From Kineococcus rhizosphaerae (GTDB lineage: Bacteria; Actinomycetota; Actinomycetes; Actinomycetales; Kineococcaceae): a stretch of DNA of 64,000 nt. Where the stretch lies: positions 186,001-250,000 of the forward strand of contig NZ_PVZF01000004.1 of assembly GCF_003002055.1 (NCBI RefSeq). The letters run 5' to 3'. A program made the translations under genes and the position numbers. Under the pieces are notes generated by a model that was not told the DNA's origin, did not search any database, and saw nothing but the letters and a program-made list of their open reading frames with translations. Below are positions 9,987-57,830 of the stretch, in pieces; position 1 is the stretch's first letter, and every line of letters starts with the position of its first letter.

Positions 9987-10226
9987 GACGCGCACGACGA
10001 TCGGCGCGGTGGGGGTCCGGGGACGGCGACGCGCCGACGGAGTCGCTGCGCGGGGCCGGCCCCGGGCCGCCACCCCGGGCGCCGTGAGGAGTGCGCGCAG
10101 GTGGGTGACGCGCACGACGATCGGCGCGGTGGGGGTCCGGGGGCGGCGACGCGCCGACGCAGTCGCTGCGCGGGGCCGGCCCCGGGCCGCCACCCCGGGC
10201 GCCGTGAGGAGTGCGTGCCGGTGAGC
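9987..10226 (+). repeat. Two tandem copies of a 120-bp repeat
   Basis: Copy one (about 9987-10106) and copy two (about 10107-10226) line up at exactly 120 bp with only a few differences. Each contains a CGGGGCCGGCCCCGG palindrome and ends with GTGAGGAGTGCG. In copy two that end serves as the ribosome binding site of the methyltransferase gene, whose first codons overlap the repeat. The region between the Cys-rich gene and the methyltransferase is otherwise empty. Confidence 0.9.
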
Positions 10227-19098: not shown

Positions 19099-19206
19099 GC
19101 GATCGAGGGAGTCCCCACCGCGATCGAGGAATCTCACGGCGCGGCCGGATCCTCGATCGCGGTGGGGACTCCCTCGATCGCGGTGGGGACTTCCTCGATC
19201 GCGGGG
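19099..19206. repeat. GATCGCGG-family repeats after mutY
   Basis: Five copies of a roughly 20-bp unit with core CCTCGATCGCGGTGGGGA fill the gap between mutY and arfB. The first two copies are inverted relative to the last three. The same core recurs at 57634-57830. Confidence 0.85.
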
Positions 19207-25015: not shown

Positions 25016-25048
25016 GCCCGCTCACCGCCCGCTCACCGCCCGCTCAAC
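25016..25048. repeat. Three 11-bp repeats at the end of the citrate synthase gene
   Basis: GCCCGCTCACC occurs twice and a third, altered copy overlaps the stop codon of the minus-strand citrate synthase. Confidence 0.7.
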
Positions 25049-26147
25049 GGCGGGGTTCGGGCCCCACGTACCGCGCCGAGGGCCGGATGATCCGCGGGTC
25101 GGTGGCCTGCTCGAGGACGTTGGCGGTCCAGCCCACGACGCGGCTCGTGGCGAAGGTCGGCGTGAACAGGGACGGCTCCAGCCCGCACAGCGACATGACG
25201 ACGCCCGCGTAGTACTCGACGTTGGCGTGCAGCCGGCGCCCCGGCTTCAGCTCCGTGAGCGTCTGGACCACCCGCTGCTCGACGTCGACGGCGAGCTCGA
25301 CGAGCGGGCCGCCGAGGGCGAGCGCCGTCTCGCGCAGCAGCACCGAGCGCGGGTCCTCGGTCCGGTAGACGGCGTGCCCGAAGCCCATGACCCGCCCGCC
25401 CGCCGCGAGCTGGGCGCGCACCCACGCCGGGGCCCGCTCGGGCGTGCCGATCTCCTCCAGCGCGGCCAGCGCCCGGTCCGGGGCCCCGCCGTGCAGCGGG
25501 CCGGAGAAGGCGCCGAGGGCCGCGACGACGGCCGAGACCACGTCGGCGCCGGTGGAGGCGACGACGCGGGCGGTGAACGTGGAGGCGTTGAAGCCGTGGT
25601 CGACGGTGGCGACGAGGTAGCGGCGCAGCGCCGCGACGTGCTCGTCGTCGGGCAGCCGCCCGTGCAGCACCCACAGCCAGTTCGCGGCGGCGTCGAGGTC
25701 GTCGCGCGGGGCGAGGGGGTCGAGCCCGGAGCGGACCCGGTGCAGGGCCGCGAGGACCGTGGGGGTCAGCGCGCACACCCGCAGGGCGTCGGCGGCCCGC
25801 TCCTCGACGGACGCGTCGTAGACGGGCCGGCCGCCGAGGAGCGACAGGGCGGTGCGCAGCCCGGCCAGCGGCGGGAGCCCGGCCAGGGCCGGCAGCAGGT
25901 CGACGACGGCCGTCGGCAGCGCCCGGGCCGCCGCGACCTCGGCCCGGAACGCGTCGAGCTCGGCGGGCGAGGGCAGCCGGCCGCGGTGCAGGAGGAACCA
26001 GACGTCCTCCAGCGAGCGGGTCCGGGCCAGCTCGACGGCGGAGTGCTGGCGGTAGTGGAAGAACCCCTCCTCGCCGCGGACGTCGCCGAGCTCGGTCGTC
26101 GTGACGACCACGCCCTTCAGGCCCGGGGGAACCATCGTCTCGGTCAT
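25044..26147 (-). CDS. Citrate synthase family protein
   Basis: The 367-residue protein has the citrate synthase fold: VDHGFNASTFTARVVASTGAD, FSGPLHGGAPDR (first catalytic His), MGFGHAVYRTEDPR (second catalytic His) and LHANVEYYAGVVM. At the third catalytic position it has Glu in NVEYY where classical enzymes have Asp in NVDFY. Condensation of acetyl-CoA or propionyl-CoA with oxaloacetate is therefore likely but not certain. ATG at 26147. The frame stays open across the repeat array of the neighbour, but that is antisense. It is divergent from an HTH-fused paralogue, and an operator-like double dyad lies between them. Confidence 0.85.
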   Translation of the reverse strand: MTETMVPPGLKGVVVTTTELGDVRGEEGFFHYRQHSAVELARTRSLEDVWFLLHRGRLPSPAELDAFRAEVAAARALPTAVVDLLPALAGLPPLAGLRTALSLLGGRPVYDASVEERAADALRVCALTPTVLAALHRVRSGLDPLAPRDDLDAAANWLWVLHGRLPDDEHVAALRRYLVATVDHGFNASTFTARVVASTGADVVSAVVAALGAFSGPLHGGAPDRALAALEEIGTPERAPAWVRAQLAAGGRVMGFGHAVYRTEDPRSVLLRETALALGGPLVELAVDVEQRVVQTLTELKPGRRLHANVEYYAGVVMSLCGLEPSLFTPTFATSRVVGWTANVLEQATDPRIIRPSARYVGPEPRR

Positions 26148-26164: not shown

Positions 26165-26198
26165 GTTGACGGGCCCGGTCAACGTTGATCGGATCAAC
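26165..26198. promoter_or_regulatory. Double dyad between the two citrate synthase genes
   Basis: GTTGAC-N7-GTCAAC (26165-26183) abuts GTTGATC-N1-GATCAAC (26184-26198). All four half-sites share GTTGA, in alternating orientation. The second dyad ends 1 bp before the GTG of the HTH-fused gene. This is a good candidate operator for its HTH domain. Confidence 0.55.
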
Positions 26199-26199
26199 C

Positions 26200-27516
26200 G
26201 TGGACGAGTCGAGCACCCCGGGGACGAGCGCCCGGGAGATCGGCGCCCGGGAGATCGGCGCCCGGGAGATCGGCGCCCGGGAGATCGGCGCCCGGGAGAT
26301 CGGCGCCCGGGAGATCGGCGCCCGGGAGATCGGCGCCCGGGAGATCGGCGCCCGGGAGATCGGCGCCCGGGAGATCGGCGCCCGGGAGATCGGCACCCGG
26401 GAGATCGGCACCCGGGAGGCCGCCCACCGGCTGGGGGTGAAGACGGCGACCCTGTACGCGTACGTGAGCCGGGGCCTGATCACCGCGCGGCGCACCCCCG
26501 GGGGCAGCCGCTTCGACGCGGCCCAGGTCGCGGCGCTCGCCGCGCGCGGGCGCAGCCGTCCGGCCGGCGCGGTCGAGACGGTCGCGAGCGAGCTCACGTC
26601 GCTCGACGGGGACCGCCTGCGCTACCGCGGGCGGGACGCGGTGGAGCTGTCGCGGACGACGTCGTTCGAGGAGGTCGCCCGCCTGCTGTGGTCGGGGACG
26701 GCGACGGCGGGGCCGTTGCGCCGCGACGAGGACCTGACCCGGCGGGTGGGGGACGTGCTGGCCGGGCTGCCCGCGGCCACGCGCCCCCCGGCCCGGCTGC
26801 GGGTGGCGGTCGCGGTCGCGGGGGCGCTGGCCCCGGCCGCTCCCGAGGCCGGTCCCGAGGCCGGTGCCGATCCCGAGCCCCTGCTGGCCGCGGTCCTGGG
26901 CGTGCGGACCTCGGTGGCCGAGGCCGTCGACGAGGCGCTGGGGGCGCCGGGCCGCTGGGGCCCGGCGCTGGTCCTGCTGGCCGACCACGGCCTGGCCGTC
27001 TCGACGGTCGCGGCGCGCGTGGCGGCCAGCGCCCGCGCTCCCCTGCCGTCGGCGCTGTCGGCGGCCCTGGGCGCGGCGGGCGGTCCGCTGCACGCCGGCG
27101 CCGCCGCGGCCGCGCACCGCTTCCTGGAGCAGGTCCTCACGGACGGGCCGGCGCGGGCGGTTGCCGCGCGCCGCCTGTCGCAGGACGGCGTGCCGGGTTT
27201 CGGTCACGTCGTGCACACCGCACGCGACCCGCGCGCCGAGGAGCTGCTGGACGCGCTGCCGCCCGGGCCGGTGGCCGACGTCGTCGGGCCCCTCGTCGAG
27301 CAGGTGGTCCGCGCGCACGGGGCGCGGGCGTTCCCGAACGTCGACCTGGCCCTGGCCGCGCACGCCCTGGCCCACGGCCTGCCCGCCGACGCCGGGGAGT
27401 TCGTGTTCGAGGTGGCCCGCACGGCGGGGTGGATCGCGCACGCCCTGGAGGAGTACCACGCCCCGGGTCTGCGCTTCCGCGTCCGGGGACTGCAGCAGAC
27501 CTCCCACGGGACGTGA
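26200..27516 (+). CDS. Citrate synthase family protein with N-terminal HTH and REIGA repeats
   Basis: The protein has about 438 residues. Residues 12-71 are twelve copies of a pentapeptide, ten REIGA and two REIGT. A MerR/excisionase-like HTH follows (REAAHRLGVKTATLYAYVSR, then GGSRFDAAQVAALA). The rest, from about residue 125, is a citrate synthase-like domain with GGPLHAGAAAAAH and GVPGFGHVVHTARDPR (both catalytic His) and AFPNVDLALAAHA (catalytic Asp kept). It lacks the Arg of the usual GHRVYK. HTH-fused citrate synthases are known in actinobacteria; the repeat is unusual. GTG 26200 is my choice. A TTG at 26185 would place the start inside the operator dyad. It may sense a CoA ester or oxaloacetate and regulate the divergent pair (inference). 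Confidence 0.82.
   Translation: MDESSTPGTSAREIGAREIGAREIGAREIGAREIGAREIGAREIGAREIGAREIGAREIGAREIGTREIGTREAAHRLGVKTATLYAYVSRGLITARRTPGGSRFDAAQVAALAARGRSRPAGAVETVASELTSLDGDRLRYRGRDAVELSRTTSFEEVARLLWSGTATAGPLRRDEDLTRRVGDVLAGLPAATRPPARLRVAVAVAGALAPAAPEAGPEAGADPEPLLAAVLGVRTSVAEAVDEALGAPGRWGPALVLLADHGLAVSTVAARVAASARAPLPSALSAALGAAGGPLHAGAAAAAHRFLEQVLTDGPARAVAARRLSQDGVPGFGHVVHTARDPRAEELLDALPPGPVADVVGPLVEQVVRAHGARAFPNVDLALAAHALAHGLPADAGEFVFEVARTAGWIAHALEEYHAPGLRFRVRGLQQTSHGT
26233..26412 (+). repeat. Twelve tandem 15-bp repeats encoding REIG(A/T)
   Basis: The unit CGGGAGATCGGCGCC is repeated ten times without change, followed by two copies with one base changed (A to T residue). The start of the HTH (CGGGAGGCCGCC) looks like a thirteenth, diverged unit, so the array may have grown out of the HTH coding sequence. 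Confidence 0.95.
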
Positions 27517-57613: not shown

Positions 57614-57633
57614 CCCCGCACCCCGCACCCCGC

Positions 57634-57830
57634 CGCGATCGAGGAAACCCCCACCGCGATCGAGGACGACTGGGTCCTCGATCGACATGGCCGTTTCCTT
57701 GATCGCGGTGGGTGTCCTTGATCGCGGTGGGTGTCCTTGATCGCGGTGGGTGTCCTTGATCGCGGTGGGTGTCCTTGATCGCGGTGGGTGTCCTTGATCG
57801 CGGTGCGGGTTTCCTCGACCGCGGTGGGGT
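57634..57830. repeat. GATCGCGG-family tandem repeat array
   Basis: Five perfect 19-bp copies of TCCTTGATCGCGGTGGGTG (57696-57790) are followed by one copy with changes and one more diverged copy. Three copies before 57690 are partly inverted and separated by unique bases. The core is shared with 19099-19206. There are no spacers, so it is not CRISPR. It fills most of the 319-bp gap before the GT4 gene. Confidence 0.9.

Follow-up and report, generated by a model that had tools for sequence, protein, structure and literature searches.

A citrate synthase fold joined to a MerR-like helix-turn-helix: a candidate regulator of a neighboring citA gene in actinobacteria

The window, a 64,000-nucleotide stretch of Kineococcus rhizosphaerae DNA, carries a gene annotated as a citrate synthase whose product combines a helix-turn-helix (HTH) with a citrate synthase domain; we refer to it by the shorthand HCS, for HTH-citrate synthase. 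The reading frame opens with a GTG at 26200 and its stop codon ends at 27516. A second, citA-type citrate synthase gene is divergent from it, with the two start codons 52 bp apart, and the DNA between them contains a putative operator. The features of the locus are as follows.

25044–26147, minus strand: citA-type citrate synthase of 367 aa, the divergent partner of HCS (Pfam, PDB match, alignment).
26165–26170, no strand assigned: outer half-site GTTGAC (alignment of genus loci).
26178–26198, no strand assigned: putative operator core GTCAACGTTGATCGGATCAAC, with the palindrome GTTGATCGGATCAAC at 26184–26198, one base before the GTG start.
26200–27516, plus strand: HCS gene, GTG start, 438 aa, comprising an N-tail with a repeat array, a MerR-like winged HTH, a flexible linker and a citrate synthase domain.
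26233–26412, plus strand: array of twelve 15-bp units, REIGA ten times and then REIGT twice, residues 12–71 (TRF, sequence).
26410–26550, plus strand: winged HTH, MerR/HTH_17-like, residues 71–117 (Pfam and AlphaFold2).
26575–27480, plus strand: citrate synthase domain (Pfam, residue alignment, Foldseek).

A sequence-only reading of this DNA had described a protein that joins twelve REIG(A/T) units, a MerR-like HTH and a citrate synthase domain, and the frame, the array coordinates and Pfam all agree with that description. Pfam placed MerR (PF00376) at residues 72–104 with 31.3 bits (cut-off 28.2) and Citrate_synt (PF00285) with 165.8 bits (cut-off 27); HTH_17 and MerR_1 fell just under their cut-offs. 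Among NCBIfam models, 25 were listed, and all scored below cut-off. In an AlphaFold2 model built with 46 family members (mean pLDDT 89.6), both the winged HTH and the citrate synthase domain were well predicted. The HTH block reached pLDDT 93–95 over residues 71–110, with helices at 71–78 and 82–90 and wing strands at 96–99 and 102–106, and the Pfam score and the model together identify it as a winged HTH of the MerR type. The 50 Foldseek matches shown for the model were all citrate or methylcitrate synthases, with E-values down to 1.6e-13. Overall, the model comprises a winged HTH and an entire citrate synthase fold. MerR regulators carry a C-terminal coiled-coil dimerization helix after the HTH; this helix is absent from the HCS model, where the HTH passes through a low-confidence linker (residues 120–124 below 50) into the citrate synthase domain. 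A plasmid search with the window protein returned no match, and one with a relative returned a single match covering 97%, beneath which no gene was listed, the other 11 of 12 matches covering at most 65%.

The N-terminal array was the most conspicuous element of the earlier description. As claimed there, units 1–10 are identical in DNA (CGGGAGATCGGCGCC, encoding REIGA); units 11 and 12 differ by one base and encode REIGT. The TRF score of 368 is the second highest among 31 rows in the window. The repeat number was read from a 63-contig assembly and the array is a near-perfect 180 bp, so the exact count is provisional. No in-frame ATG, GTG or TTG occurs inside the 15-bp unit, and the array is therefore translated provided that the gene starts at 26200; start codons of HCS in genus relatives occupy the equivalent place, just behind the operator. 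Its distribution is narrow. At a tolerance of two mismatches, a 27-base segment of the array is present in one of 11 genus genomes (one genome per species), the window's own, and none of the other N-tails compared across HCS homologs carries it. The closest genus relative, 82% identical, has no array and starts MDEIPTAEAAHRLGV straight into the HTH. A contig scan with the full protein, array included, gave 46 loci, nearly all through the low-complexity N-tail, and these were discarded; a regular-expression search of the 46 for at least three consecutive REIG or at least four xEIGx units found none. Pentapeptide repeats of the PF00805 type follow A(D/N)LXX, and this assignment was rejected, as the unit is REIGA and there was no Pfam match to PF00805 up to an E-value of 1.

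The earlier reading also took the first HTH codons for a diverged unit and proposed that the array grew out of the HTH. The resemblance holds for the first six bases (CGGGAG) only. The closest relative has Ala (GCC) at this place, in TAEAAHRLGV, so that the array seems to run into the HTH and not to have grown from it. Another possibility is that the array itself is what is functionally new, a helical rod of variable length through which slippage would tune spacing or affinity for DNA. Slippage is plausible here, since ten identical units should be prone to it, and AlphaFold2 draws residues 11–63 as a single helix with moderate confidence (block pLDDT 70–87). However, the array is missing from the 10 other genus genomes and the other N-tails compared, a Gly at every fifth position weakens a helix, and each unit adds one Arg and one Glu and hence zero net charge; as a design, the tunable rod is very unlikely. 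N-tails of HCS homologs vary widely in length and composition, and one distant homolog (L166, from genome G545), in which the His320 equivalent is Met, has its own GDSDAT-type tandem repeat before the HTH, which suggests that the N-tail is permissive. The likeliest reading of the REIG array is a recent expansion in such a tail, probably neutral or weakly modulating. As a one-species add-on, it is the least important part of HCS.

Other repeats were observed elsewhere in the window. An element with GATCGCGGTGGG occurs 13 times at up to one mismatch, against 1.9 expected, with about seven tandem 19-bp copies at 57696–57828 and single or inverted copies at 57629–57661, 19114–19187 and 14205; it is possibly a dispersed repeat family. 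Two tandem 120-bp copies, 96% matching, lie at 9987–10223 (TRF).

In contrast to the array, the pairing with citA recurs well beyond the species. The closest PDB match of the window CitA is Bacillus subtilis CitA (2c6x, E 3.7e-84), with which it shares the replacement of the catalytic Asp by Glu; the same Glu is found in all 61 CitA partners that have this column filled, and Asp is kept in 73 of 74 HCS proteins. Among 394 genomes of the class, 59 yielded a retrieved HTH-bearing copy. The 67 HCS loci, less one whose HTH is lost at a contig end (L139), make up the 66 analyzed here, with partial class matches (G130, G182, G259, G273 and G352) left out, and at 56 of the 66 a CitA-type gene scoring above 300 bits lies on the opposite strand. 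Within the genus, a CitA ortholog of 72–100% identity is present in exactly the seven of 11 genomes that have HCS; at a threshold of 1e-60, three of the four genomes without HCS contain only a paralog of 43–47% and one contains nothing. Outside the class, nine of 22 HCS genomes were analyzed, and five of the nine loci carry a CitA gene above 200 bits. Judged from these genomes, HCS proteins form an actinobacterial family whose genes usually diverge from one for a CitA-type citrate synthase. In B. subtilis, CitR is a LysR protein and the divergent regulator beside the secondary citrate synthase CitA. The layout is similar, but HCS is without a LysR domain, with no Pfam match to the LysR HTH or substrate domain up to an E-value of 1.

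The DNA between the two genes holds a conserved site. When the seven genus loci were aligned, the outer TTGAC, GTCAACGTTGATC and ATCAACC were invariant. All seven genus genomes that have HCS contain the palindrome GTTGATCNNATCAAC, each at one place, the four that lack HCS do not, and a reversed-pattern control gave 0; the 21-bp core is unique in the window's genome even when three mismatches are allowed. Across the 66 loci, in counts that are descriptive and not blind, the strict motif and half-site definitions having been set after viewing about 30 loci, and in which related loci are not independent, the strict motif stands mismatch-free upstream of 32 HCS genes versus none of 860 background windows (two of which come within two mismatches), and at least three TTGAY/RTCAA half-sites per 70 bp are found at 64. 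The mean number of half-sites per 70 bp is 4.3 at these loci, compared with 0.6 for shuffled sequence and 0.05 for a coding control, the region counted for the window being the DNA upstream of the array. Many of the 34 loci that miss the strict form have a spacer one base longer; an f38 subgroup and three further loci (L125, L126 and L131) have a different site arrangement, with half-sites still there.

Scanning the class for the strict motif returned 31 sites in 30 of the 394 genomes, and 28 of these, in 27 genomes, adjoin HCS or citA. The other three (in G380, G373 and G322) lie within open frames, and neither HCS nor CitA was present in the 3–5 kb retrieved around them. In one genus (g57), 19 of the 22 genomes that give an HCS match have the strict site, compared with none of the 17 that do not; 18 of the 22 have one site, G258 has two, and G075, G164 and G204 have none, the last of these having a spacing variant. 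A regularly spaced site is also found at six of the nine loci analyzed outside the class. By sequence, the shared element is recognizable across families of the class. MerR operators lie between the −35 and −10 elements, with a spacer of 19–20 bp; a consensus scan around the site for a sigma-70-like promoter, covering spacers of 16–18, found none. The alternative of an RNA hairpin was rejected, as neither strand folded more favorably than its shuffled versions (z −0.84 and +0.16) and only a single base would be left as the loop between the two 7-bp arms, which counts against such a structure.

Alternatively, the palindromes could belong to a global regulator such as GlnR or MtrA, with the HTH of HCS serving another purpose. 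In Streptomyces coelicolor, the DNA separating sco5831 (citA3) from sco5832 (citA4) is bound by MtrA, and late time points show raised levels of the two genes in the mtrA mutant; in Saccharopolyspora erythraea, GlnR negatively controls citA and citA4 (PMC12323332 and PMC10704036, respectively, in the parts of these papers available). A box of this kind should recur through the genome, yet the motif is found roughly once in a genome, and genomes that lack HCS mostly lack the motif as well. Furthermore, the MtrA consensus in the available part of its source is a GTAACC direct repeat, unlike the dyad of the HCS loci (PMC12323332), and the published MtrA site letters had no match in 173 loci. We regard this explanation as quite improbable, and GlnR or MtrA may act at the citA locus in addition. 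The two pairs are citrate synthase genes under common regulation, as proposed here for HCS and citA; the S. coelicolor genes share the MtrA-bound intergenic region, and the accessible text describes both pairs only as citrate synthases. Judged by gene order and names, SCO5831/SCO5832 and citA/citA4 are very probably HCS–citA modules themselves.

Rearranged loci offer natural experiments on the linkage between site and genes. In G258, some 20 kb lie between HCS and citA (loci L150 and L151), and each gene has its own strict site, the only two in that genome; citA was predicted beforehand at the second site and found 75 bp from it. The two element copies look like a region duplicated during the rearrangement. 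At another locus (L165), a beta-lactamase-like open frame, called by eye, separates HCS from citA, and the sole regular site found adjoins citA, 1.1 kb from HCS. The sole two of 66 HCS loci without a half-site cluster, in G075 and G164, are also without an adjacent CitA. The cluster is retained at eight of the 10 HCS loci that lack an adjacent full CitA, and thus citA is not the sole thing maintaining it; autoregulation fits this pattern.

The active site was compared in 74 HCS rows (75 less L136, which is without the citrate synthase part) and 62 CitA rows, and a tree was built from 73 HCS rows, leaving out L136 and L126, which ends at a contig edge. We take H263, H298, H336, R345, D382, R407 and R427 of the window protein to be equivalent to His238, His274, His320, Arg329, Asp375, Arg401 and Arg421' of the pig enzyme. 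The arginines and the His238 equivalent, presumably the oxaloacetate-holding residues of citrate synthases, are almost invariant in HCS: the equivalents of Arg329 and Arg401 are present in 74 of 74, and those of Arg421' and His238 in 73 of 74. The catalytic positions are less uniform. The equivalent of His320, the second catalytic His, is lost in 7/74 HCS versus 0/62 CitA, and one protein (L131) is missing the equivalents of both His274, the first catalytic His, and Asp375; the catalytic His pair is intact in all 62 CitA partners. At the Asn position of the NxST motif, 71 of 74 HCS carry Ala and all 62 CitA carry Asn. On the tree, a catalytic residue is lost in eight of 73 rows, which needs four changes; supported branches force three of these. 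Two of the eight rows (L131 and L166) are long branches of unsure position. Catalytic residue loss apparently happened at least three times in these sequences.

These residues also bear on another explanation, that HCS is a trigger enzyme: it would catalyze citrate (or methylcitrate) synthesis and bind its own operator as well, and turnover itself would report substrate supply. The equivalents of His274, His320 and Asp375 are all retained in the window copy and in 65 of the 73 tree rows, the predicted citrate synthase domain is complete, and most members, HCS of the window included, may be active enzymes as well. On the other side stand the apparent repeated losses with arginines kept and the near-universal change of the NxST Asn to Ala, and we consider a trigger enzyme rather unlikely. 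Ligand residues that are retained where catalysis is dispensable would show the pattern expected of a sensor.

In our assessment, HCS is rather likely to regulate a single locus, its own gene included, probably as a repressor, with the citrate synthase fold serving as the sensor through which citA is controlled. From sequence come the architecture, the conserved and near-unique site, its linkage to both genes, and the ligand residues kept alongside dispensable catalysis. The MerR-like HTH would bind the cluster of inverted TTGAY/RTCAA half-sites between the HCS gene and citA. Since the half-sites cover the region between both genes, repression of HCS itself together with citA is the simplest reading: bound HCS would cover both promoter regions and repress both genes. 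Oxaloacetate, citrate or an acyl-CoA in the active-site cleft could then alter domain closure and release or tighten DNA binding, and the secondary citrate synthase would be made only when the substrate or product level requires it. HCS would dimerize through its citrate synthase domain. We infer the binding of the HTH at the site, the promoter overlap, the sign of regulation, the ligand and this mode of dimerization. The idea in the sequence-only reading that an enzyme fold from central metabolism serves as a ligand-sensing regulator is well supported, with DNA binding and ligand sensing as the parts that we infer; this reading draws on the near-unique site held in common with citA, the co-inheritance of gene, partner and site, and the repeated catalytic losses with substrate residues kept. 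In citrate synthases, the neighboring subunit completes the active site. Mixed dimers of HCS and CitA are thus conceivable, in which the enzyme level itself would be the signal, although this is speculative and unlikely.

Regulators that combine an HTH with an enzyme fold are already known, and the citrate synthase fold in such a role is a new variation. MocR/GabR proteins, in the descriptions available, resemble HCS in having an N-terminal winged HTH linked to a complete enzyme fold that serves as the metabolite sensor, but they use an aminotransferase fold and a GntR HTH, whereas HCS has a citrate synthase fold and a MerR-like HTH. The effector domain of BzdR is shikimate-kinase-like. According to the accessible portion of its description, BzdR is likewise a case of an enzyme-derived effector domain turned regulator (PMC3602430), and it differs from HCS in fold, HTH and target. 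Caulobacter CitA parallels our reading of HCS as a citrate synthase with a catalysis-independent regulatory role, but it acts on CtrA and S-phase entry, and the abstract mentions no DNA-binding domain (PMC7083601). A literature search that covered few subscription papers found no description of a DNA-binding citrate synthase among the papers listed.

More broadly, there is about an even chance that HCS represents a widespread class of transcription factors, as yet without a name, in which a citrate synthase fold senses oxaloacetate, citrate or acyl-CoA and a dedicated citA is the target. If this is true, genes that have been taken as extra citrate synthases in many actinobacteria would be regulators of the adjoining citA. 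Citrate synthase would join the enzyme folds recruited as transcriptional sensors, and which metabolite gates the secondary citrate synthase would become testable. Metabolic models would change, and antibiotic-producing actinomycetes would have a dedicated sensor at the entry to the TCA cycle.
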